DNA of 64,000 nt, taken from Thermodesulfobium narugense DSM 14796. Lineage in GTDB: Bacteria; Thermodesulfobiota; Thermodesulfobiia; Thermodesulfobiales; Thermodesulfobiaceae. The stretch's first letter is position 1, and each line of letters begins with the position of its first letter. The stretch is taken from the NCBI RefSeq assembly GCF_000212395.1, contig NC_015499.1, positions 1,561,421 to 1,625,420 on the forward strand, written 5' to 3'. Position numbers and translations under genes: made by a program. Below are positions 1 to 12,480 of the stretch, piece by piece. The notes under the pieces were generated by a model that made no database searches, had not been told where the DNA came from, and saw only the letters and a program-made list of their open reading frames with translations.

Positions 1-804
1 CATATTTCGTCCTGCAAATCACCTCAGCAAATGTTTGGACCCATCGCGAAAACTTATTATGCTGAAAAAAAAGGAATTAATCCCGAGGATATCTTCGTTG
101 TTTCAATAATGCCCTGTACAGCAAAGAAATACGAAGCTGCTCGCCCAGAAATGAATGCGGCAGCTACTTACTGGAACAATCCAAATATCACAAGAGATGT
201 TGATGTTGTCTTGACGTCACGAGAGCTTATAAGAATGATTCGCGAGGCTGGAATTGATTTTGCCAACCTTCCTGATGAACCATACGATCCTCTCATGGGA
301 GAAGGCACAGGTGCTGCACAAATATTTGGTGCAACAGGTGGAGTTATGGAAGCAGCTCTGAGGACAGCATATGAAGTTATCACTGGAAAAACGCTGCCAA
401 AACTTGATTTTGAAGATGTAAGAGGAATGAAAGAAATTAAAGAAGCATCAGTAAATATGAACGGACTTACAGTAAAAGTACTTGTTGCACATTCTCTCGG
501 AGCAGCTAGACAACTCTTGGATAAAGTCAGAGCGGGAGAACTTAAAGATTATCACTTTATAGAAATTATGGCATGTCCAGGAGGATGTATTGGTGGAGGT
601 GGACAGCCAATTCCAACTACAGTTGAGGAAAGAGAAAATCGTATCAAAGGGATATACGAAAGAGATAAAAAACTTAAAATCAGGAAAAGCCATGAAAATC
701 CTGAAATTCAAGCAATTTATAAAGAATTTCTCAAAGAACCTCTTGGACACAAATCACATCAACTTCTTCATACCCACTACACGCCAAGAGGTAAAAGTAA
801 TTAA
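1..804 (+). CDS. hydA: [FeFe] hydrogenase catalytic subunit, C-terminal part
   Basis: This is the C-terminal part of an iron-only hydrogenase that reversibly converts protons and electrons to H2 at the H-cluster. The reading frame is open from base 1, so the start lies outside the window. Visible motifs are MPCTAKKYE and the last H-cluster motif, MACPGGC followed by GGGGQP, which carries the two C-terminal cysteine ligands. The last ~60 residues match the iron hydrogenase small-subunit domain (HPLGHK-type HQLLHT ending), here fused to the large subunit as in cytoplasmic monomeric or electron-bifurcating enzymes. It precedes an aspartase-like gene, hydF and hydE on the same strand, so it is a likely client of those maturases. 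The first 30 bases encode in-frame residues consistent with the family. Confidence 0.95.
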   Translation, partial: HISSCKSPQQMFGPIAKTYYAEKKGINPEDIFVVSIMPCTAKKYEAARPEMNAAATYWNNPNITRDVDVVLTSRELIRMIREAGIDFANLPDEPYDPLMGEGTGAAQIFGATGGVMEAALRTAYEVITGKTLPKLDFEDVRGMKEIKEASVNMNGLTVKVLVAHSLGAARQLLDKVRAGELKDYHFIEIMACPGGCIGGGGQPIPTTVEERENRIKGIYERDKKLKIRKSHENPEIQAIYKEFLKEPLGHKSHQLLHTHYTPRGKSN

Positions 805-1026: not shown

Positions 1027-2403
1027 ATGTTTACTTATCGTCATGAAGAAGATTTAATTGGTTGTATGAATATCCCTACTAATATTTATTGGGGTATTCA
1101 TACCGAAAGAGCTAAAAGAAATTTTGATTTTGGTTTTGCCAAAGTAAATATGGCCATTATTTTTGCTCTTGCTATGGTCAAAAAGGCATGCACCATAACC
1201 AACTATGAATTAGGGTTCTTAGAAGAAAAAAAGGCTAAAGCTATTATTACAGCATGTGATGAAATTATGGAAGGAAAGTTTAGTGATCAGTTTCCACTAG
1301 ATGCTCTTCAAGGGGGCGCTGGTACTTCTATTAACATGAATTTAAACGAGGTTATTGCCAATAGAGCCATTGAAACTCTTGGTGGCTTAAAGGGTAATTA
1401 TAACTTAGTTCATCCCTTACATGATGTCAATCTTCATCAATCTACAAACGATGTTTTCCCTACTGCTATCAAAATAGCAGCAATATTTAAACTAAGAGAA
1501 CTTAGCGAAGCCATTGCTAGACTTCAGGGTGCCTTCCAAAAAAAAGAAAAAGAATTTGCTGGTATTGTAAAGATTGGACGCACTGAACTTCAAGAAGCTG
1601 TACCCTTAACCTTGGGAACTGAATTTGCAGCTTTTGCTGAAGCTATTGCCAGAGATAGATGGCGAACATTTAAATGCGAAGAAAGATTAAGAGTAGTTAA
1701 TCTTGGTGGTACTGCAATAGGGACTGGGCTAACAGCACCAAAGGAATATATTTTTTTAGTCATTGAGAAATTGAGAGAAATTACAGGGCTTGGACTTTGC
1801 CGCGGTGAAAATGTCCCAGGAGAAACAGCCAACGCCGATCCTTTTGTAGAGGTTTCTGGCATACTTAAAGCTCATGCCTCTAATTTAGTAAAAATTAATA
1901 ATGACTTAAGACTTTTAAACCTTTTTGGAGAAATTATGCTTCCTGCCCTACAATCAGGCTCTTCTATTATGCCAGGTAAAATCAATCCAGTACTCTGCGA
2001 AGCTGCCATTCAAATCGGGCTTAAAGTTATGGCCAATGATTTTTTGATTACTGAAGCCACCAGTCGTAGCACGCTTCAAATTTGTGAATTCTTGCCTATT
2101 CTAGCCCATGCCTTACTAGAATCACTGGACTTATTGATTATACTTAATCAAAAAGTAGTTGCTTATATTAACAATATCAATGCCAATGAAGAAAAATGTC
2201 AGGAATACTTTAATAAAAGTCTTACTCTGATTACTGCCTTTTTACCATTAATTGGCTATAAACAGGCTGAAGCTTTAGTTAAGGAATTTTTAAACCTTAA
2301 GGGTGTCGACTTAAAAGAATTCTTATCTCAACGACTGGGAGAAAATGTAGTTAAAGATATACTTTCTCCTTACAAACTTACAGCCTTAGGATATCGACAA
2401 TGA
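1027..2403 (+). CDS. Aspartase/fumarase-family lyase in a hydrogenase-maturation cluster
   Basis: This 458-residue protein belongs to the aspartate ammonia-lyase/class II fumarase superfamily. It has the signature GSSIMPGKINPV and a preceding GRTELQEAVPLTLG segment. The family typically converts aspartate to fumarate and ammonia. Aspartase-like genes sit beside hydE/hydF/hydG in other bacteria (for example hydX of Shewanella), where released ammonia may supply the bridgehead amine of the H-cluster dithiolate. That link is inference here. Its last 4 bases overlap the hydF start, so the two are probably translationally coupled. The start ATG is preceded by GAGGT at a long spacing. It could also be an ordinary catabolic aspartase. 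Confidence 0.85.
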   Translation: MFTYRHEEDLIGCMNIPTNIYWGIHTERAKRNFDFGFAKVNMAIIFALAMVKKACTITNYELGFLEEKKAKAIITACDEIMEGKFSDQFPLDALQGGAGTSINMNLNEVIANRAIETLGGLKGNYNLVHPLHDVNLHQSTNDVFPTAIKIAAIFKLRELSEAIARLQGAFQKKEKEFAGIVKIGRTELQEAVPLTLGTEFAAFAEAIARDRWRTFKCEERLRVVNLGGTAIGTGLTAPKEYIFLVIEKLREITGLGLCRGENVPGETANADPFVEVSGILKAHASNLVKINNDLRLLNLFGEIMLPALQSGSSIMPGKINPVLCEAAIQIGLKVMANDFLITEATSRSTLQICEFLPILAHALLESLDLLIILNQKVVAYINNINANEEKCQEYFNKSLTLITAFLPLIGYKQAEALVKEFLNLKGVDLKEFLSQRLGENVVKDILSPYKLTALGYRQ

Positions 2404-3656
2404 ATAAGACACCACGAGGAAACAGGCTCCATATTGCACTGCTTGGCAGAACTAATGTAGGCAAATCTTCATTTTTAAATATGATCACAGGACAAGATGT
2501 TTCTATTATCTCATCAATACCTGGTACCACAACCGACGTCGTAGAAAAGGCTATGGAACTTCTACCTATTGGCCCTGTATTATTTTTGGACACTGCTGGT
2601 TTTGACGACAAGTCAACATTAGCAAACTTAAGGCTTAAAAAAACCTATAATGTTTTCAATAGAGCTGATGTTGCTGTTTTACTATTAGAACCTGAAGTTT
2701 GGACTGATTATGAAGAGGAAATATTAAAAGAGACTCAAAAAAGAGAGATCCCTCTAATCGCCATTATTAATAAAATTGACCTTAAAGAACCTTCAAACAA
2801 CTTTATCAATCAATTAAGATCACGTATAGGACAGGTAGTTATTATTTCAGCCTTGGACAAGAAAAATCGGGACAACTACGTTAATGCCTTTAAAACACAA
2901 CTTTTAAAGATTTGCCCGCCAGATTTTCTACAACCACCGCCTTTAATAGGTGATTTGCTGCCGCCAAGTGGATTAGCAGTTTTGGTTGTACCTATTGATT
3001 TAGAAGCTCCTAAGGGAAGGCTTATTTTACCTCAAGTACAAACCATAAGAGATACTCTCGATAATGACGCTGCTGCTCTTGTGGTTAAAGAAAGAGAGCT
3101 AGCACATATTTTAAATATTTTGAAAATAAAGCCTAACATTGTAGTTTGTGACTCCCAGGTAGTCTTAAAGATGTGTGCAGATACCCCTAAGGGTATTCCA
3201 GCAACGACTTTTTCCATACTTTTTTCTCGATACAAAGGTGACTTGATAGAACAGGCCAAGGGAGCGGCTCATATTGAGGCTTTAAAAACTGGAGACAAAG
3301 TACTTATAGCTGAAGGTTGCACCCACCACCCTATTGAAGATGATATTGGTCGAGTTAAGATTCCTCGCTGGTTAAGACAATTTGTAGGCAGCGATCTCCA
3401 AATTGATTTCTATGCTGGTAGAGATTATCCTGATAATTTAGGTGAATACAAACTGGTTATTCATTGCGGTGCCTGCACCCTCAATCGGCGTGAAATGCTT
3501 GAACGCATTCAAATGGCAAAGGAAGTGGGCGTACCAATTACTAATTACGGTATTAGTATTTCTTTATTGCAGGGAGTTTTAAAACGTACTTTAAGCCCTT
3601 TCCCTGCAGCATTAATAGCATTTGAGAAAGAATTGGAGAAGATAAAATGCCATTAG
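2400..3656 (+). CDS. hydF: [FeFe] hydrogenase maturation GTPase HydF
   Basis: HydF is the scaffold on which the 2Fe subcluster of the H-cluster is completed before transfer to apo-hydrogenase. The 418-residue length is normal. The N-terminal GTPase domain shows GRTNVGKSS (about 16-24), the PGTTTD switch, DTAG and NKID. The C-terminal [4Fe-4S]-binding domain has C-T-H at 307-309 and H-C-G-A-C at 355-359, the full CxH...HCxxC set of the family. It overlaps the aspartase-like gene by 4 bases and hydE by 10 bases, which indicates one operon. All expected ligands are present, so it looks functional, unlike its altered HydE neighbour. Confidence 0.95.
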   Translation: MNKTPRGNRLHIALLGRTNVGKSSFLNMITGQDVSIISSIPGTTTDVVEKAMELLPIGPVLFLDTAGFDDKSTLANLRLKKTYNVFNRADVAVLLLEPEVWTDYEEEILKETQKREIPLIAIINKIDLKEPSNNFINQLRSRIGQVVIISALDKKNRDNYVNAFKTQLLKICPPDFLQPPPLIGDLLPPSGLAVLVVPIDLEAPKGRLILPQVQTIRDTLDNDAAALVVKERELAHILNILKIKPNIVVCDSQVVLKMCADTPKGIPATTFSILFSRYKGDLIEQAKGAAHIEALKTGDKVLIAEGCTHHPIEDDIGRVKIPRWLRQFVGSDLQIDFYAGRDYPDNLGEYKLVIHCGACTLNRREMLERIQMAKEVGVPITNYGISISLLQGVLKRTLSPFPAALIAFEKELEKIKCH

Positions 3657-4651
3657 TAAAAAAAGAGATAATACATTATTTAACTGATAAAACTGCCGAA
3701 GACGAACTTTTTTCTAAAGCTGATGACACAAGAAAACAATATTGTGGTGATACAGCTAATTTAAGAGGAGTAATTCACTTTTCTAATTACTGCCGTTGCG
3801 ATGATCTTTATTGTGGTCTTAGGAAAAGCAATAAAGAAATGAAAAGGTTTCGCATGGATACTGAAACAATTATTTCTTTAGCTGATGAAATCGCTAAAAA
3901 TTCAATTAAGACTATTGTCTTACAATCTGGCGAAGATGTTTTTTATAGTTGTAAAATGCTCTGTCAAATTATAAAAGAAATTAAAAGGCTACATGATGTT
4001 GCCATCACATTAAGTCTTGGCGAAAGAAGTTGTGATGATTATAAACGCCTTTATGAAGCAGGCGCTGACAGATATTTGATGAAACATGAAACCATGAATG
4101 AAGAATTATATGAAAAAATGCGCCCTGGCCGCAAGTTAAAAGACCGCTTAAAAGCATTGGAATATTTGAGAGAAATTGGCTTCCAAGTAGGAACCGGCAA
4201 TATTGTAGGGCTTCCAGGGCAGACAATTGAAGATCTGGCCAAAGATATACTCTTTTTCCAAGACTTCCAGCCAGATATGATAAACATTGGTCCATTTATA
4301 CCCCACAAACAAACGCCACTAAAGGATTATCCTCCAGGAGACTTCGATCTTATGCTTAAGGTTTTTGCTCTAACTCGCATTGTAACATTAAATACCCATA
4401 TAGCTGCCGCTAATACTGTAGCTACCTTAAGACCCATAGAAGGGCAATATTTGTGCTTCGTTAAAGGTGGATGCAATGTCTTGATGCCCAATTGCAATCC
4501 CTTTGCTGAAAGCAAAGAAAAAAAGGTTGAGTTTGAATTTCAGTGTGCTCCTAAGAAACGATATGTTAGTGTTGATGAAGCTAAAGAAATTCTAAAAATG
4601 GCAGGTAGAAAGATCGCTCAAGATAAGGGACACTCGCTAAAAAGGAGGTAA
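3647..4651 (+). CDS. hydE: HydE-family radical SAM protein with altered cysteine motif
   Basis: The 334-residue protein aligns along its length with HydE, the radical SAM enzyme acting on the organometallic Fe-cysteine intermediate in H-cluster assembly. Recognisable blocks include [48 protein letters not shown] and IGPFIPH. In normal HydE the SAM cluster is held by CxxxCxxC. Here the cysteines are C49, C51 and C56, with Asp at 53, where the middle cysteine should be. The spacing is therefore CxCxxxxC. It overlaps hydF by 10 bases and is followed 2 bases later by the NifH-like gene. It may be a HydE with altered cluster chemistry, a neofunctionalised paralog serving the nitrogenase-like genes, or a damaged copy. 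Confidence 0.88.
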
Positions 4652-4653
4652 AA

Positions 4654-5409
4654 ATGTTAAAAATCGCTGTTTACGGTAAAGGGGGTATTGGCAAATCAAC
4701 GATAACATCTCATCTTTCAGCTTCCTTTGCCACTTTAGGCAAAAGGGTAATGCAAATTGGCTGTGACCCCAAAACTGATTCCACAATGAATTTACTTGGA
4801 GGCAAATCACCTAAACCTATTTTAAGGTATATTGAAGAATACGGACAACCTGAAGATATAGAAGAAATTGTTAAAATTGGCTTTAAAAAAGTCATCTGTC
4901 TTGAAGTAGGCGGCCCCACTCCAGGAATTGGTTGTGCCGGGAGAGGTATTATTACGGCCTTTGAACTCTTAGATGACTTAGGAGTTTACCAAAGATATAG
5001 ACCTGATGTCGTGCTTTATGACGTCTTGGGAGATGTGGTTTGCGGCGGTTTTGCAGTACCTATGCGAGAAGGGTATGCTGATAAAGTGCTTGTTATAACT
5101 TCTGGGGAAAAATTAGCACTTTATGCAGCAGAAAATATTATTCAAGCAATTAAAAACTTTTCCGATCGAAATTATGCCCGTCTTAGCGGCCTGATTCTGA
5201 ATAGAAGAAATATCCCTGAGGAAATAGAAAAGGTAGGAAACTTTGCCAAAAAAATGCATACCAAAATCTTAGGTATTATTCCCAAAGATGAATACATAAA
5301 TAGGGCTGAACTTGAGGGAAAGACCACAGTTGAGCTTGACGAAAGCCTTCCAATAAGTCAAACATTTATTAGCTTGGCTGGAGTTTTACTGGAGGAAAAT
5401 CAATGCTAA
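4654..5409 (+). CDS. NifH-like ATP-dependent reductase component
   Basis: This 251-residue homodimeric iron-protein type ATPase passes electrons to a NifDK-like partner during ATP hydrolysis. It has the P-loop GKGGIGKST (about 9-17), the DPKTDST segment, and the two cysteines that hold the intersubunit [4Fe-4S] cluster, in GCAGRG and [11 protein letters not shown]. The length matches nitrogenase-like (NflH, BchL, CfbC) reductases rather than long NifH. AAAAGGAGGTAAAA precedes the ATG. It overlaps the NifD-like gene by 7 bases. No nifB, nifE, nifN or molybdate genes are nearby, so diazotrophy is not implied. The substrate is unknown. Confidence 0.93.
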
Positions 5410-6695
5410 TAGAAAAGTCCAGAATAAAAATAACCGATTTTAAAAGTAAAAGGGATTTTCCCTTTGCTCCCTTAGAAGCAGTAGGTCCTAATCTTTCTGG
5501 CTGGGGAGTGGTGGAAACCAGTTTACTTCTACCAAACAGCGTTTGTCTGATGGTAGGGCCACTTGCCTGTTTAAGACATTCGGCTTTTATGGCACAGGCT
5601 CGTAGTTTTTATAAACGCTTTTATATGCTGCCTTTAGAAGAAGTAGAAATTGTTATGGGCAAACATTTTTCTAAAGTAAAAGAATCCTTAAAGGAAATTG
5701 CTTTGAAGGACTCGCCTCAAATTTTGATTTTAGCAGGCACTTGTTGTGATCATATTTTAGGTACTGATTATAAAGAAATAATGCAGGAACTAAAAAAAGA
5801 ATTAGGGATCGAAGTCATTTATCTGGTGATGGCTCCTTTAACCATTGGCCTTAAGCCTTCACCATTCGAGATTGCTTACACTGCCCTTTACGAATTTTTA
5901 AAAGACAAAAGGAAGGAAGAGAAGGAACAAAAGGCTATCAATATTTTAGGTACCTTTTTACCATTATCAGAAAAAAGTGAGTTTTATAGTCTGTTAAAAG
6001 AGGCTGGCTATAAAAGCATCTATCAAATTCCTACCTGCAAAGACATTAATGAGCTAAAGCAAATGGCTAATGTTTGCTTAAATATCGTAATACATCCTCT
6101 CGGTAATATCCTGGCAAAAAAGATGGAAACAGGAATGGGTATTCCTTATGTCTTTTGCCCTCAAAGCTACGGAACAAAAGAAATTGAACAACAATATCAA
6201 AAATTAGAAGAAAGATTAGGACAAAAACTAAATTATACCTTTTACAAAAAAAACATTGAAAAGCTCCCATTGGATATCTTAAAAAATAAAAGAGTAGCTA
6301 TTGGTTGTAGTATTAACGGAAGTCCATTAGAACTAGCTTGTGCCTTAAAGCAATTTGGCGCTGAACCCAAAGCTATTTTCCTTAGAAATACCCCTAAACC
6401 ATACGAATGGGAATACGTTGAGTGGCTTTCAGATAATAGCGCTGAAACCTATATATATAATGTTGCACACCCTTATCTAAACGAATCAATAAATATATTT
6501 GATGACATAGAACTTGTGTTTGGAGTAGATGCCGGTATTTATTGTTCTAAAGCTATCAACATTCCGCTTTCACGTTATCAAAATCAAACATATGGTTTTG
6601 AAACTCTTTTATGGCTTTTTGAAGAAGTCACAAAAAATATCACTAAACCTATAAGCAACTATGACTGGATTTACAATTATAATCTTCTAATTTAG
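5403..6695 (+). CDS. NifD-like nitrogenase component 1 alpha-type protein
   Basis: A 430-residue oxidoreductase of the nitrogenase component-1 superfamily. [11 protein letters not shown] holds a cysteine (C56) equivalent to the P-cluster GPxxC cysteine, C48 lies just before it, and [12 protein letters not shown] carries C114/C115 near the third P-cluster cysteine position. I do not see the cofactor-binding Cys/His pair of true NifD, so a simple [4Fe-4S] or P-cluster-like centre is more likely than FeMo-co. The segment around residues 170-180 is rich in Lys/Glu. Overlap with the reductase gene and an 8-base gap to the NifK-like gene show one operon. It does not match BchN or CfbD by any motif I recognise. 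Confidence 0.88.
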
Positions 6696-6703
6696 GAGGA
6701 AAC

Positions 6704-7867
6704 ATGAACCTTTTTTATAATCTTTTACCACTTCCGTCTGGATATTTTGGCGCTAGCAGTGCTCTTTATGATTTGGATGGGCTTATCGTTGTTTATGGCC
6801 CAGCTGGTGGTGCTTGGCACATAAATATTGAAGATGAACCCAGATGGTATCGTGGAAAAACAACTGTAATCGGAGCTGGACTTTTAGAAATGGATGTTAT
6901 CTTAGGAAAGGATTCAGAATTTGTGGAAAGAATTGTCAGTGTAGCCCGTGACTTAAATAGAAACTTTGTGGCTCTGTGTGGAACGCCAGTTTCTGCCATT
7001 ATCGGTGCAGATTTAAAAGGTCTAACCCAAGCCATTCAAAAAAGGATTTACACGCCTACACTTTGCATTGAAACTTCTGGAACAGAAAACTATCTTGAAG
7101 GAGCTAAAAAATCATCTATTAAAATAGCACAAACTTTTTTAAAACAACTTCCCAAAATACCAAATTCTATCAATATCTTAGGAGCCATCCACTTAGATAC
7201 AGGACATCCCAAACACCTTAAGCCTTTAATTTCTTTTTTAGAAAATTCCGAAGTTAAGATAACAAGCATATGGGGGCACTCTCCTTTAGAAGATATTAAA
7301 AGGTCAAGTTCAGCCAGTTTAAATATAGTAATAGGTCTAAGCGGATTAAGTTTAGCTCAATACATGTATGAAACATTCGGCATTCCTTATATTATTGGCT
7401 TCCCCATCGGCAAAAAAATGCAGGAATATTTCTTCAACATCCTAAAAGATAAGCCATACCATTTACCAACTGCTTCTTACTATTTTAAAAAGGCTCTTGT
7501 TATTGGAGAACCAGTTAGAGCCTTTAGCCTTAAACTTTTTTTAGAAAGAGAGCTTTGCATTAAGACTAAGGTTATTTCAATTCTGCCATTTAAAGAACTC
7601 TTATTACCACAAAAAGGTCTTAAAAACACTATTATTATGCCTTCAGAAGAAGATATACCAATCAATTCTGAATCAACAATTGCTGATTTGATGAGCAAAT
7701 CTGATGTCGATTACATCATTGCTGATCCCTTCTACGAAAGATTGTTACATCAAAAAAGGCAGTTTATTCCCTTACCCCACACTGCTATAAGTGCCCGTTT
7801 TTACTGGGACGCTGATTATGAATATATAGGAGAAATCGGAGCTAAATATTTAAAAGATAGACTTTAA
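6704..7867 (+). CDS. NifK-like nitrogenase component 1 beta-type protein
   Basis: This 387-residue partner of the NifD-like protein has typical component-1 blocks: YGPAGGAWH near 31-39 and CGTPVSAIIGADL near 92-104. The GPxGC cysteine is replaced by Gly (G35/G36), leaving C92 as the only likely cluster ligand. A D/K interface with several cysteines on one subunit and one on the other recalls the asymmetric [4Fe-4S] site of DPOR (BchN/BchB). AGGAGG precedes the ATG. It is the last gene of the run, and no terminator is evident after it. The substrate is unknown. The association with hydE and hydF is the main clue. Confidence 0.87.
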   Translation: MNLFYNLLPLPSGYFGASSALYDLDGLIVVYGPAGGAWHINIEDEPRWYRGKTTVIGAGLLEMDVILGKDSEFVERIVSVARDLNRNFVALCGTPVSAIIGADLKGLTQAIQKRIYTPTLCIETSGTENYLEGAKKSSIKIAQTFLKQLPKIPNSINILGAIHLDTGHPKHLKPLISFLENSEVKITSIWGHSPLEDIKRSSSASLNIVIGLSGLSLAQYMYETFGIPYIIGFPIGKKMQEYFFNILKDKPYHLPTASYYFKKALVIGEPVRAFSLKLFLERELCIKTKVISILPFKELLLPQKGLKNTIIMPSEEDIPINSESTIADLMSKSDVDYIIADPFYERLLHQKRQFIPLPHTAISARFYWDADYEYIGEIGAKYLKDRL

Positions 7868-8352
7868 ACAAAATATATTTGAGAACATATCGTTGTATCA
7901 AGGTATTGGTTTCCGATCTGATGACAGCAGCAATATTGCCATATCCTCGTTTTCAAATGGAAGTTTGTGGCACTTATATAGCGCAACAATTTCGCGCTGG
8001 CGTAATACCCTTTCCCCTTGATAAATTACTCTTAGCTAATGTTATAAGTTGCCCAATGTTATATTAATTTTTTTAAAATCTTATAAAATTTAACTAAAAA
8101 AACAATTACATGTCTCCCCTTTTTATCCTTAAAGTTTTGATAATTTTTTCAAAATCTTTAAAAAATACTTTTTTTACTAACATAATGTTAAATTGCTATC
8201 AAAGGGGAGACTTATTCATAAAATAACAAATCTCACTTACAAAAACTAAAAATTTACAATTATATCAAGTTTTCTTTCAAATTAAAGTCTCTCATAATCA
8301 TCAAAATTATTAGTTTATAGAAATAAAAAGAACCGTTTAACTTAAATAAATA
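7868..8352. other. Convergent intergenic region with an inverted repeat
   Basis: This gap lies between the convergent NifK-like and cytochrome b genes. A 62-codon ORF from a TTG at 7879 shows no family I recognise and no ribosome-binding site, so I do not call it. An 11-bp inverted repeat, GTCTCCCCTTT at 8112-8122 and AAAGGGGAGAC at 8201-8211, bounds a 100-bp very AT-rich block. This could be a small MITE-like remnant or a regulatory structure. No clear intrinsic terminator is visible. Confidence 0.4.
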
Positions 8353-9027
8353 TTATTCGTTTTTTATATGTCCAATCTCAATCAAATCTTCCTTTACCCA
8401 TTTAGGTGAGTGATGCTTGGCAACTTGATAAGGCATATAACCGCTCCCTAATCGCCACATAGCCTTGAAGTCGTCAAAGTTAATTAATGAAAGGGGTAGA
8501 TGAATCACGGTTACAAGAATAGTAGTGATTATGCTGCCCCACACGTGAAAATAAAATAGAAAACTAACCACTTCTTTACCAAGTCCTTGTCTCATAAGAT
8601 AAAGAGCCCAACCCGATACAATTAGTCCAAATATCATAAAGATAAACAAAAGATATGCCAGCTGTTGGCCTGTATTATATTTACCTTGAGGAGCAGTTTC
8701 TTCAGGACCAAAAGGAATTCCAAATTTTCTAGGATAACCACCTAAATTTTTAAACCAAGCCAAAGAATCCTTATCCCACTTTAAAAGATTTCTAAGTAAA
8801 ATATAGAACCTATCAGGACTAATCAAAATGAAAGAAATCAAATTTAGCGTAAAGATTATTGCTGTCCAAATGTGAACTTGCATCAAAAATCCTGCTATAT
8901 CTTCAGGAACTAATTTGAAAAAAACAAGTATTCCAGTAATGGCTAAAATATACCACGTAATAGCATTTACATTGTGAAATACTTTTTCAGAAACAGGAAA
9001 CCTTAATACTTTTTCGTTATTATCCAT
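8353..9027 (-). CDS. Cytochrome b membrane anchor of periplasmic hydrogenase
   Basis: A 224-residue four-helix di-haem cytochrome b of the formate-dehydrogenase-gamma/cytochrome b561 type. It probably moves electrons from the periplasmic [FeFe] hydrogenase to the quinone pool. Hydrophobic helices lie near 22-38, 51-70, 122-146 and 158-178. Histidines occur in the first helix region (FHNVNAITWYI), the second (MQVHIWTAII) and the fourth (FYFHVWGSII and VIHLPLS), suitable as haem ligands. Its start overlaps the hydB stop by 1 base. Gene order hydA-hydB-cytochrome b on this strand indicates a membrane-bound H2:quinone oxidoreductase. The C-terminus is soluble and charged. Confidence 0.88.
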   Translation of the reverse strand: MDNNEKVLRFPVSEKVFHNVNAITWYILAITGILVFFKLVPEDIAGFLMQVHIWTAIIFTLNLISFILISPDRFYILLRNLLKWDKDSLAWFKNLGGYPRKFGIPFGPEETAPQGKYNTGQQLAYLLFIFMIFGLIVSGWALYLMRQGLGKEVVSFLFYFHVWGSIITTILVTVIHLPLSLINFDDFKAMWRLGSGYMPYQVAKHHSPKWVKEDLIEIGHIKNE

Positions 9028-9386
9028 TATAATTTCCCTCCTTGCATTATTAAATCAGATCTCACAACATATCCTTTTGTATGAAGTAGCTGTTCTGAAA
9101 TTTTGCTAAGAGGATGTCCTGCAAATTCTTTATAAAATCTTTGTACTGTGGGATTTTCAAATGAAGCTGCCAAACCTGCTCCCTGCAATCTTTGATCGTC
9201 TTTGTAGAGACCTGCCTGTCTCATTGTTATATATTTATTTCTCTTTTTTATAACATCTGTTGCAGCAAATCCACCTATTGCTAAAACAGATACTAAAACC
9301 CCTGTAATTTTTAAAAAGGTTCTTCTACTTAGCAAAGCTGAAGACGGTTTTTCTTCATACTTGAAAGGAACTCTTATATCTTCCAT
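9027..9386 (-). CDS. hydB: [FeFe] hydrogenase small subunit with Tat signal
   Basis: This 119-residue small subunit of a periplasmic iron-only hydrogenase begins with a twin-arginine signal: SRRTFLKITG near 20-29, then a hydrophobic stretch ending in FAATD. The mature part is the small-subunit domain (FYKEFAGHPLSKISEQLLHT), matching the C-terminal domain that is fused to the large subunit in the hydrogenase at the left edge. HydA lacks its own signal, so HydB probably carries the folded HydAB complex through the Tat system, as in Desulfovibrio. It is preceded by GGAGGGAAATAG and lies 28 bases downstream of hydA. Confidence 0.93.
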   Translation of the reverse strand: MEDIRVPFKYEEKPSSALLSRRTFLKITGVLVSVLAIGGFAATDVIKKRNKYITMRQAGLYKDDQRLQGAGLAASFENPTVQRFYKEFAGHPLSKISEQLLHTKGYVVRSDLIMQGGKL

Positions 9387-9414
9387 CTATTTCCCTCCTT
9401 AAATCCAAATTTGC

Positions 9415-10764
9415 TTAAGCTTTTAATCCCAAAGGAAGTAACGGGTCTATCCAAGACGTCCCCATTGGATTAACCGGTTGTCCCCCACCATTTATACATC
9501 CTCCTGGACAGTTCATCACCTCTATGAAGTGATATTTAGAAGTTCCTTGTATCACATCACCAATAACCTCATCCAAGTGGTTTTTTATTCCGTTAACTAC
9601 TGCAACCTTTACATCTATTGAATTGCCCGATTTAAGAGGAATTCGGATTTCAGTTTCTTTCAAACCCGTTGTATGTCCTCTAACAGCATAGATATCCCAG
9701 CTTGGAGGATCATTTCCTGAAAGAACGTAATAAGCAGTTCTAAGAGCTGCCTCCATAACCCCACCGCTATTGCCAAATATTGTTGCAGCACCAGTATAAA
9801 TATCTAAAGGATCATTTTCCCCTTCTTCCGGCATCTCTAAAGGATTGATCCCCTTCATTTTAAGAAGTGTTGCTAAATCTCTTGTTGTAAGTACAGCATC
9901 AATGTCAGGGAAAGGAGAAGTATCTTTTGGAATCGAACCATTATTTTTTAAAAATTCATATGCTGATTTAAATTCTGGTCTACTAGCCTCAAATATTTTA
10001 GCAGTACAAGGCATTATTCCAACTGTATAAACCTTTCTTGGATCTACTTTCCATATATTTAAAGCAGCCCAGGTCTTCGCAGATGGGCCTGCCATTTGCA
10101 TGGGCGATTTTGCTCCTGATATATGAGGGAGAAGTTGAGGATGATATATTTCTGCATATCTAATCCATGCAGGACAACAACTTGTAAAGTGTGGCAGCGG
10201 ATGGTCTGCCATCTCCTTTAGCTCCTCGCTTCTTTCTCCAAGAAGCCAGTATCTTACTTTAGCTATAAATTCAAATCCCTCTTCCATTATTGTTTGATCG
10301 GCAGCTAAATTGTTTTCATACATTTTAAAACCTGCTTTTCTTAGCGCATTGTGAAGGCGTTTGACTGTCAGCGTTCCTGGCGGGGATCCAAATTCTTCTG
10401 CTATTGCTACACGAACAGCAGGAGCTGTTATTGCTACAACAGTTGTTTGAGGATCTTCAAGTTTTTTTGCAACCTCCTCAACAAAACTCATTTGCTCAAT
10501 TGCACCAAAGGGACAATTAATCAAACACTGTCCACAGGTAATACACTTCATTATGTCTATAGAATGAGCAACTCCTAATTCTCCCCTTATTGCATTTGCT
10601 GGACACTGCTCTCTACAAGTATCACATCCTACACATTTATTCTGATTAATTTTTATTATTCCTTTTAACTCCCCTGGTCTATAAGTACCTTCAGGCAATG
10701 GTCCCTTTACCCGTGAGTCCGGGCCTGGCAAAAAGGTAGTTACAGGCTGTGTAGTACTACTCAT
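9415..10764 (-). CDS. hydA: Periplasmic [FeFe] hydrogenase large subunit
   Basis: This catalytic subunit for H2 oxidation or production uses an H-cluster. Starting at the ATG at 10764, with AAAGGAGGG in front, it has 449 residues. The longer open frame reaching 10914 has no ribosome-binding site. Two ferredoxin-like [4Fe-4S] motifs lie near 34-45 (CVGCDTCREQCP) and 64-75 (CITCGQCLINCP). H-cluster motifs TSCCPAW, MPCTAKIFE and MNCPGGCINGGGQP are complete. It has no export signal, and HydB provides one. It is the first gene of the hydA-hydB-cytochrome b operon. Its 5' region has several strong hairpins and an upstream insertion sequence. Confidence 0.95.
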   Translation of the reverse strand: MSSTTQPVTTFLPGPDSRVKGPLPEGTYRPGELKGIIKINQNKCVGCDTCREQCPANAIRGELGVAHSIDIMKCITCGQCLINCPFGAIEQMSFVEEVAKKLEDPQTTVVAITAPAVRVAIAEEFGSPPGTLTVKRLHNALRKAGFKMYENNLAADQTIMEEGFEFIAKVRYWLLGERSEELKEMADHPLPHFTSCCPAWIRYAEIYHPQLLPHISGAKSPMQMAGPSAKTWAALNIWKVDPRKVYTVGIMPCTAKIFEASRPEFKSAYEFLKNNGSIPKDTSPFPDIDAVLTTRDLATLLKMKGINPLEMPEEGENDPLDIYTGAATIFGNSGGVMEAALRTAYYVLSGNDPPSWDIYAVRGHTTGLKETEIRIPLKSGNSIDVKVAVVNGIKNHLDEVIGDVIQGTSKYHFIEVMNCPGGCINGGGQPVNPMGTSWIDPLLPLGLKA

Positions 10765-11112
10765 AAAAATCCCTCCTTTGGCATACTTTTTTTTGGCATT
10801 TTTAATTTTGGGGGGGATCCTTCTTCCCCCCCAAACAACCGCAATCCCTGGCCACAACTCCAATTGCATTCGATTCCTAATCGAATTAGGCGTAAAAACA
10901 TTAAAATAAAACAAATATGACTAACTCATTATCCATAACCTCCTTTCAAAAGAAAAAGCCACGAAAGCTAAACGTAATAACCATTACGCCTTCGCCTTCA
11001 TGGCTTTTTGATAACAACCTTATTAATTTAAAAACCCTAATTCATTTAGGGCAATCTTAGCTATGCTAAGTTGCATAGATGATATCAAAAAACAATTTAA
11101 GTGTCAACCTTA
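10765..11112 (-). promoter_or_regulatory. Structured leader region of the hydA operon
   Basis: Reading on the minus strand, three hairpins precede hydA. The first pairs 11009-10994 with 10968-10953 (16 bp with two G-U pairs, AAAAAGCC...GGCTTTTT) around an inner CGTAAT/ATTACG hairpin at 10988-10973. The second is a CCTAAT/ATTAGG palindrome at 10876-10890. The third is a 10-bp TTTGGGGGGG/CCCCCCCAAA stem at 10835-10807, remarkable in such AT-rich DNA. Between the first and second, a strong AAAGGAGG precedes an 11-codon ORF (10936-10901) that could be a leader peptide. Attenuation or mRNA stabilisation is inferred. No known riboswitch is recognised. Confidence 0.5.
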
Positions 11113-11226: not shown

Positions 11227-12480
11227 ATGGGGTTAACGATGAAGGAAAGAAAATCAGTGGTGAGTGAAATTGCAAAAAGATATAAAAAAGCAAGCAAGAA
11301 ACAAAAAGGCATAATTTTAGATGAGTTAATAGCTTTGACTGGATACAATCGTAGTTATGCATCTTTTCTTTTAAGCAGTCATGAGAAGATAGTAAGGATG
11401 AATAACAGAGTTTTAAAAGTAGATTTAACGATGAAGAAAAAGAAAAAGAAAAGCAAATATTATGATGATGATGTAAAAAAGGCGTTAATTAAGGTATGGG
11501 ACGTTTTAGATTGTCCATGTGGCAAAAGGTTAAAACCTGTTCTTCCTGAAATAATATATAAACTTAAAGAGTTTAAAGAAATACAAATTGAAAGGGATGT
11601 AGAAGAAAAACTCTTTAAGATAAGCGCATCTACTATAGACAGAATACTTTCAGAATACAAAAGAATGAATAAACCAAAGGGAAAGACATATACAAAACCA
11701 GGCAGCCTTCTTAAAAGCCAGATCCCTATAAGGACATTTTCAGAATGGGACGAAAGTATACCTGGATATTTAGAAATAGACCTTGTAGGTCATGAAGGAG
11801 GAGATCTAAGAGGAGAATTTATCCAAACTCTAACTGCAGTTGACATTTGCACCGGTTGGATAGAAATAGATGCTTTAAGAAATAAAGCTCAAAGGTGGGT
11901 TTTTGAATCAATAGATGAAATAAAGAAACGCTTGCCTTTTAAACTCTTTGGAATTGATTCTGATAATGGAGCAGAGTTTATAAATCATCAACTTCATCGC
12001 TATTGTGTTGAAAATAATATAACGTTCACAAGGTCAAGAAAATATAGAAAAAACGATAATTGCTATGTTGAACAGAAAAACTACTCTGTAGTAAGAAAAT
12101 ATGTTGGTTATTTTAGATATGATAGAGAAGTTGAGCTAATAACTTTAAAAAGGCTTTATGAAAGCCTAAGGCTATATATAAACTTTTTTCAGCCTGTAAT
12201 GAAACAAATCTCAAAAGAAAGAATTGGAAGTAAAGTTACAAAAAAATACGATAAAGCAAGAACTCCTTATCAAAGAATATTAGAAAATCCTGGTGTAGAA
12301 AAAATAGATAAAGAAAAGCTAATAGAACAGTATACAAAATTAAATCCAGCTGAACTTCAAAGAGAAATAGTAAAACTTCAAAAAAAATTACTAGAAGATA
12401 TATCCATAAAGGAAGAAGTAAGAAACTCTATTAAAAAAATTAGCAAAAACAAAGATAAAATATGTTATGGTTATGTTTAG
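11227..12480 (+). CDS. DDE integrase-core transposase
   Basis: This 417-residue transposase has an N-terminal helix-turn-helix region (TGYNRSYASFLL near 38-50), basic linkers, and an rve/integrase catalytic core. The acidic triad is visible: EIDLVGHEGG, then GIDSDNGAEF, then a Glu exactly 35 residues after the second Asp (CYVEQKN), giving the D-35-E spacing of IS481/ISNCY-type elements. CTGGAGG precedes the ATG. The frame is intact, so the element may still be active. A coiled-coil-like Lys/Glu-rich tail closes the protein. I cannot assign the IS subgroup without a search. Confidence 0.92.
   Translation: MGLTMKERKSVVSEIAKRYKKASKKQKGIILDELIALTGYNRSYASFLLSSHEKIVRMNNRVLKVDLTMKKKKKKSKYYDDDVKKALIKVWDVLDCPCGKRLKPVLPEIIYKLKEFKEIQIERDVEEKLFKISASTIDRILSEYKRMNKPKGKTYTKPGSLLKSQIPIRTFSEWDESIPGYLEIDLVGHEGGDLRGEFIQTLTAVDICTGWIEIDALRNKAQRWVFESIDEIKKRLPFKLFGIDSDNGAEFINHQLHRYCVENNITFTRSRKYRKNDNCYVEQKNYSVVRKYVGYFRYDREVELITLKRLYESLRLYINFFQPVMKQISKERIGSKVTKKYDKARTPYQRILENPGVEKIDKEKLIEQYTKLNPAELQREIVKLQKKLLEDISIKEEVRNSIKKISKNKDKICYGYV

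Follow-up and report, generated by a model that had tools for sequence, protein, structure and literature searches.

The window analysed here is a 64,000-nucleotide stretch of the single-contig genome (1,898,865 bases) of Thermodesulfobium narugense DSM 14796 (G000 C1:1561421-1625420). It carries at positions 1027-7867 an operon, aspA-hydF-hydE-nflH-nflD-nflK, which joins the [FeFe]-hydrogenase maturases HydF and HydE to a nitrogenase-like reductase (NflHDK). We propose, with a rough probability of 0.6, that this operon matures the H-cluster of [FeFe] hydrogenases by a variant route independent of HydG. The same data suggest with considerable confidence that the unit takes part in H-cluster maturation at all, and that it replaces the function of HydG also appears probable. 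The evidence throughout is genomic and comprises gene content, linkage across phyla, a missing or broken hydG, an altered HydE motif, linkage to hyp genes and a relic of hypD, from which the chemistry discussed below is inferred.

The coordinates of the open reading frames (ORFs) and family searches identify a real operon, all on the forward strand and directly 3' of hydA, whose six ORFs are joined by overlaps of 4, 10 and 7 bases and gaps of 2 and 8 bases (Table 1); coordinates and curated family scores agree with the six-gene, one-strand operon described in an earlier reading of the DNA letters (the sequence-only reading). That reading had also set recurrence of the hydE linkage in distant genomes as a check, with confinement to one strain as its refutation, and this refutation failed: the unit is known from eight genomes, namely G000, a second species of the genus (G003) and six genomes outside it, with hydE present every time. 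Relatives were found by scanning 84,980 genomes with two short NflD peptide patterns, which gives a lower bound since only relatives that keep the peptides are caught. The six outside loci, with NflD 45-77% identical, are recorded as Desulfofervidaceae (L049, L050), Thermodesulfatator (L051) and Desulfovibrionales (L052-L054); NCBI places Thermodesulfobium in a phylum of its own, Thermodesulfobiota. The order hydE-nflH-nflD-nflK is kept in all six, and aspA-hydF stands upstream in L049, L050 and L052. In the Thermodesulfatator locus, two inserted minus-strand ORFs separate nflD from nflK (L051:2939-3744).

HydA adjoins the unit in four genomes and is found in five of the six outside ones. Sampling of the genus covered four species (G000-G003), with no close relatives at higher ranks; G000 and G003, the two complete genomes with the unit (the other six of the eight being metagenome-assembled genomes, MAGs), each have two HydA, HydE and the unit, all of which G001 and G002 lack. 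No further member appeared in an independent sample of 386 genomes across families (next best 69 bits versus >800), so, with the peptide scan, the nfl-hydE unit is rare, or divergent elsewhere. Wholesale transfer of the operon from Desulfofervidaceae is not claimed: AspA, HydF, HydE and NflH are closer to Desulfofervidaceae than to their own genus, NflD is equally close to both, and the NflK tree groups G000 with G003. The congener G001, which has no hyd genes, carries another NifD/NifE-like gene (L014, G001:C17), 26% identical to NflD, which may belong to a true nitrogenase locus.

Family searches found no hydG in the entire G000 genome, which extends the earlier observation that hydG is missing at the operon: the best match to the HydG model TIGR03955 is the operon hydE, with 42 bits where the cut-off is 312, and the T. 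maritima control was positive. Nor did any match exceed the HydG cut-off in any of the eight unit-bearing genomes, complete G000 and G003 included. An overlooked HydG was considered and rejected, as the HydG-like matches are only HydE itself, other radical-SAM (S-adenosylmethionine) relatives, one ThiH and one fragment of 160 residues. The ThiH, a 204-bit match in G102, scores 526.7 bits with its own model (cut-off 380) and lies beside thiG-, thiF- and thiE-like ORFs. The fragment, a 101-bit match in G103 (L116:2676-3155), is N-terminal, and its frame overlaps the aspA frame, with no space left for the remainder. It is part of an otherwise canonical cluster, hydA-SSU-TM1266-(hydG fragment)-aspA-canonical hydE-hydF, and may reflect a replacement in progress or an assembly fault. 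The hydA cluster of G102 (L117, G102 C115) reads hydA-SSU-TM1266-aspA-hydF, with hydG and hydE both missing from their usual places; its altered HydE (HydE*, see below) sits with nflHDK on a different contig.

Alignment to solved HydE places the three canonical cysteines of the radical-SAM cluster motif at C49, D53 and C56 of the G000 protein. Aspartate occupies the position of the middle cysteine in all eight HydE*, as C-x3-D-x2-C in the seven that cover the motif, the eighth beginning at the aspartate, and the same seven have a new cysteine at position 50 or 51, one or two residues past the first. Among themselves the eight proteins are 61-86% alike; their identity to the canonical G103 HydE, which retains CRKQCLYC, is 38-41%. 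A sequencing error is ruled out, the change being common to independent genomes. Because cysteine mutants of this motif impair hydrogenase maturation in Clostridium acetobutylicum (work cited in PMC9431212), loss of the middle cysteine should matter; ligation of the HydE* cluster by aspartate is possible. The aspA-like product is likely, by analogy, to supply ammonium for the dithiomethylamine ligand, an aspA-hyd linkage and ammonium role having been described (PMC11736057). The [4Fe-4S] ligand motif of HydF (CTHH ... HCxxC) is intact in the alignment.

In the Desulfofervidaceae locus L049, the genes hypE-hypC-aspA-hydF-hydE-nflH-nflD-nflK-hypF-hypD share a strand and overlap or are separated by short gaps. 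HypC, HypD, HypE and HypF make Fe(CN)2CO for [NiFe] hydrogenases, and L049, whose contig ends shortly past hypD, is the only locus with the full set in the unit. Its HypC keeps Cys2 and the VIHAG histidine, its HypE ends in PRIC, its HypD scores 439.7 bits with TIGR00075, and a second HypD is carried elsewhere in the genome. The set is shared with the [NiFe] system; it differs in being embedded in an [FeFe] maturation operon and in that no HypA, HypB or maturation protease lies between hydA and hypD on this contig. In other loci the unit is followed by hypF (L050), by hypC then hypD after nflK (L052) or by hypC after nflK (L053). In the window, the hypD relic directly behind nflK shows 50% identity across 34 residues with the HypD of the L049 operon, with a score of 76 against a maximum of 43 in 300 shuffles and 50 for G000's own HypD; by these scores the relic is nearer to the operon type than to G000's own HypD. 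An intact HypD is found in all eight genomes, elsewhere or within the unit. This linkage leaves a Hyp origin of the Fe unit evenly balanced in our judgement.

The three Desulfovibrionales loci also encode a protein of the [NiFe]-large-subunit family before hydE (between hydF and hydE in L052). It has the PF00374 fold (273-335 bits for the two complete proteins) and keeps the C-terminal CxxC together with the RG and PSLWN residues, whose arginine and serine hold the cyanides in D. gigas. The family's two CxxC pairs and terminal histidine are incomplete: the N-terminal cysteine pair is altered (CIC / CCLC), and the C-terminal histidine, which precedes the site of maturation cleavage, is lost. 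Such features suit a putative carrier of an Fe-CN-CO unit, not a hydrogenase. No large-subunit-like gene of this kind was assigned in G000, whose [NiFe]-family genes lie elsewhere and are the same or similar in the two congeners that have no unit.

In the alignments, NflH has the P-loop GKGGIGKS and both cluster cysteines, NflD has invariant cysteines 56, 114, 302 and 381, and NflK has no invariant cysteine and an invariant GPAGGAWHINIEDEPRWYR. By position, Cys56 and Cys114 of NflD would be Fe-S ligands. The AlphaFold2 model of NflD (predicted local distance difference test, pLDDT, 82.9) has the nitrogenase component-1 fold, with a template modelling (TM) score of ~0.7 to MoFe, NifEN and methylthio-alkane reductase chains. 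Like NifEN or NifDK with NifH, the complex combines a NifH-like ATPase with two Oxidored_nitro subunits, and the NifE model gives NflD its best score (65.7 bits). It differs in that NflD has two likely Fe-S cysteines and NflK no conserved one, and in scoring far below the nifE, nifD and nifH cut-offs (nifH 304.5 against 394, nifD 34 against 654, N2-ase alpha 43 against 486). The logic of an ATP-driven reductase is shared with the F430 reductase CfbCD and with BchLNB/XYZ, although the scores again remain under the cut-offs (CfbC 288.7 against 402, CfbD 26 against 268; for the dark-operative protochlorophyllide and chlorophyllide oxidoreductase models, BchL 205 against 345, BchN 23 against 420, BchB 36 against 490) and the operon has no tetrapyrrole genes. 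Since all curated scores are far below cut-off, no named nitrogenase-type family can be claimed for NflHDK. The other refutation foreseen in the sequence-only reading, placement in a clade of known substrate, was viewed through these curated models only, and by them NflH, NflD and NflK stay far from every named family. The solved sequence closest to the NflD profile is methylthio-alkane reductase (9fmg; 67.6 bits, E 8.5e-18), which has the same fold; 9d9u, listed with it, is annotated 'Nitrogenase'. That alignment spans only ~250 residues, and the linkage here is to hydrogenase maturation instead of sulfur genes. Divergence is too great for a sure alignment of NflD residues to the iron-molybdenum (FeMo) cofactor ligands NifD Cys275 and His442. 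Across the whole G000 genome PF00148 matches only nflD and nflK; there is therefore no nifDK or nifEN in it, which confirms the earlier note of missing nifE and nifN.

Canonically, HydG produces Fe(CN)(CO)2(Cys), which HydE then reduces through radical chemistry and dimerises; HydF contributes the bridge, drawing on ammonium and glycine-cleavage components (PMC12752695, PMC11736057). The simplest reading is that the first two steps are replaced: HydG has been lost and HydE modified, HydF and AspA are retained, and a low-potential ATP-driven reductase and hyp genes have been added. On the strength of the linkage, HypC/D/E/F and not HydG would make the Fe-CN-CO unit, which would be parked on the [NiFe]-large-subunit-like scaffold in Desulfovibrionales and may elsewhere go directly to NflDK or HydE*. 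NflH, spending ATP, would then send electrons into NflDK, where the ligands of the unit would be reduced and/or remodelled in place of the canonical radical-SAM chemistry of HydE on the HydG synthon; we give even odds to such reduction or ligand remodelling of a Hyp-derived unit by NflHDK. HydE*, with one cluster cysteine exchanged for aspartate, would be the site of binding and dimerisation. AspA would give ammonium, and HydF would complete the [2Fe] unit and deliver it to HydA, as is established for other organisms. HydF matured with HydE and without HydG gave ~1% activity in vitro, raised by exogenous CO or CN (PMC9431212). The full scheme, in which the H-cluster derives from Hyp-delivered Fe(CN)2CO, passed on in some lineages through a retired [NiFe] large subunit, and is reduced and ligand-edited by a nitrogenase-like enzyme, would amount to a third Fe-CN-CO route; we offer it tentatively, as slightly short of an even chance. 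The sequence-only reading had placed a nitrogenase-like complex inside an H-cluster-type pathway, which the hydE linkage and HydG loss in eight genomes support, or had it take a cofactor from one, for which no support was found. The genome-wide loss of hydG, the lost HydE cysteine, the hyp linkage with the hypD relic and the [NiFe]-large-subunit-like partner are points beyond it.

We consider it unlikely that NflHDK itself makes CO and/or CN, for example from CO2 or a C-N compound reduced at an Fe site, and thereby replaces HydG with the Hyp neighbours being incidental. HydG is indeed missing or broken exactly where NflHDK occurs, the units of G000 and L051 contain no intact hyp gene, and the ability of nitrogenases to reduce CO2 and act on CN speaks for such a role; the hyp linkage repeated in four genomes together with the hypD relic, the large-subunit homologue in the unit of three genomes, and the absence of the FeMo-cofactor assembly genes nifE/N from the G000 genome speak against it. 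Somewhat less plausible still, NflHDK could be an accessory ATP-driven activator that re-reduces HydE, HydF or apo-HydA, with some unrelated enzyme encoded elsewhere in the genome taking the place of HydG. Linkage of the unit is to hydE* and hyp genes, not to hydA itself, and a correlated change in the HydE active site is unexpected for a pure activator, even though the genomic evidence is compatible with assembly and activation alike and methyl-coenzyme M reductase is known to have an ATP-driven activation complex (PMC12176620). We find it improbable that the product is some other organometallic cofactor and that the hydrogenases are mere neighbours: HydE, NflDK and, in some genomes, the large-subunit-like protein are all altered and one unit-bearing MAG shows no HydA, but HydF and AspA of the unit are of canonical type, HydA adjoins in four genomes and co-occurs with the unit completely in the genus (4/4 genomes), and the HydA of G000 would otherwise be without a maturase. 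Hitchhiking of nitrogenase-like genes of unrelated function behind hydE is very improbable, since hydE-nflH-nflD-nflK order is held at 45% identity across phyla while surrounding genes vary, for all that only eight genomes are known and the L051 unit is broken by its two inserted ORFs.

Several observations weigh against HydG-independent, Hyp-fed maturation. Hyp gives two CN and one CO per Fe; the H-cluster needs more CO and only about one CN for each Fe, and a ligand exchange must therefore be postulated. The G000 operon has no intact hyp gene, its hyp genes lying elsewhere and also serving [NiFe] enzymes, and no hyp genes stand beside the unit in L051 and L054. The large-subunit-like protein is limited to three genomes, and canonical HydE is also present in G103. 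HydA was not found in the Thermodesulfatator MAG (G100), whose contig is broken inside hydE, and absence of hydG is weaker evidence in MAGs, which make up six of the eight genomes.

The operon is flanked by two HydA genes. The whole hydA preceding it encodes 590 residues (L048:8453-10225). The second [FeFe] hydrogenase operon downstream is presumed to be a client of the maturation unit; its gene content points to a periplasmic uptake enzyme, and its small subunit is a separate gene with a twin-arginine-like N-terminus. Adjoining the hydrogenase region, a 417-residue ORF at 11227-12480 resembles an integrase-core transposase by eye.

Table 1. Features of the operon and its surroundings (window coordinates).
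Feature	Position	Strand	Basis
hydA, C-terminal part, group A6 [FeFe] hydrogenase	1..804	+	PF02906, NF040763; start upstream of window
aspA-like aspartate ammonia-lyase	1027..2403	+	PRK12273 542.7 bits, cut-off 510
hydF, GTPase scaffold	2400..3656	+	TIGR03918 536.8 bits, cut-off 325.6
altered hydE (HydE*)	3647..4651	+	TIGR03956 289.7 bits, cut-off 254.6
codons of altered radical-SAM cluster motif C49-R-C-D-D53-L-Y-C56 (canonical CX3CX2C)	3791..3814	+	alignment to solved HydE
nflH, NifH-like ATP-dependent reductase	4654..5409	+	PF00142 (Fer4_NifH) 290.9 bits, cut-off 25
nflD, NifD/NifE-like subunit	5403..6695	+	PF00148 (Oxidored_nitro) 124.2 bits, cut-off 28.6
nflK, second nitrogenase-like subunit	6704..7867	+	PF00148 (Oxidored_nitro) 82.9 bits, cut-off 28.6
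decayed hypD remnant (MEVCGTYIAQQFRAGV...)	7870..8064	+	similarity to HypD at 7957-8058
second, separate [FeFe] hydrogenase operon: HydA, small subunit, cytochrome b561	8353..10770	-	PF02906, PF02256, PF01292

Canonical HydEFG (with AspA and the glycine cleavage H-protein) resembles the present system in that HydE and HydF score above curated cut-offs, AspA is in the operon, HydA adjoins and a TM1266-family regulator occurs in relatives. It differs from it in that HydG is missing here, the middle cysteine of CX3CX2C in HydE is lost, nflHDK is always joined to hydE, and relatives add hyp genes and the [NiFe]-large-subunit-like protein. A literature search, with subscription papers outside its reach, gave no description of an nfl-hydE H-cluster system, which bears out the statement of the sequence-only reading that no function was described for this combination, with one caveat. 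In a single sentence, Dos Santos et al. 2012 (PMC3464626) report that NifHEN-like proteins of Coprococcus catus and other Firmicutes are associated with hydrogenase maturation proteins, and the authors suggest metallocluster assembly. Those systems differ in belonging to Firmicutes, in having two linked NifHEN-like copies and in one conserved cysteine in the K/N-like subunit; the relevant passages mention neither a missing HydG nor an altered HydE. The linkage is possibly related to the nfl-hydE clade. We regard the nfl-hydE unit as a previously undescribed form of H-cluster maturation that stands a fair chance of amounting to a new pathway.

HydA, HydF and AspA persist in genomes that have lost an intact HydG and share one alteration of HydE, a pattern that points to another way of assembling the H-cluster. 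To our knowledge, HydG is regarded as the source of CO and CN for every [FeFe] hydrogenase and the radical-SAM cluster of HydE as essential, and we know of no earlier link between [NiFe] and [FeFe] cofactor synthesis. If the proposal is true, an unassigned nitrogenase-like clade would gain a function, [NiFe] and [FeFe] cofactor synthesis would be linked, HydG would be dispensable, and three metallocofactor systems thought to be separate would become fused.

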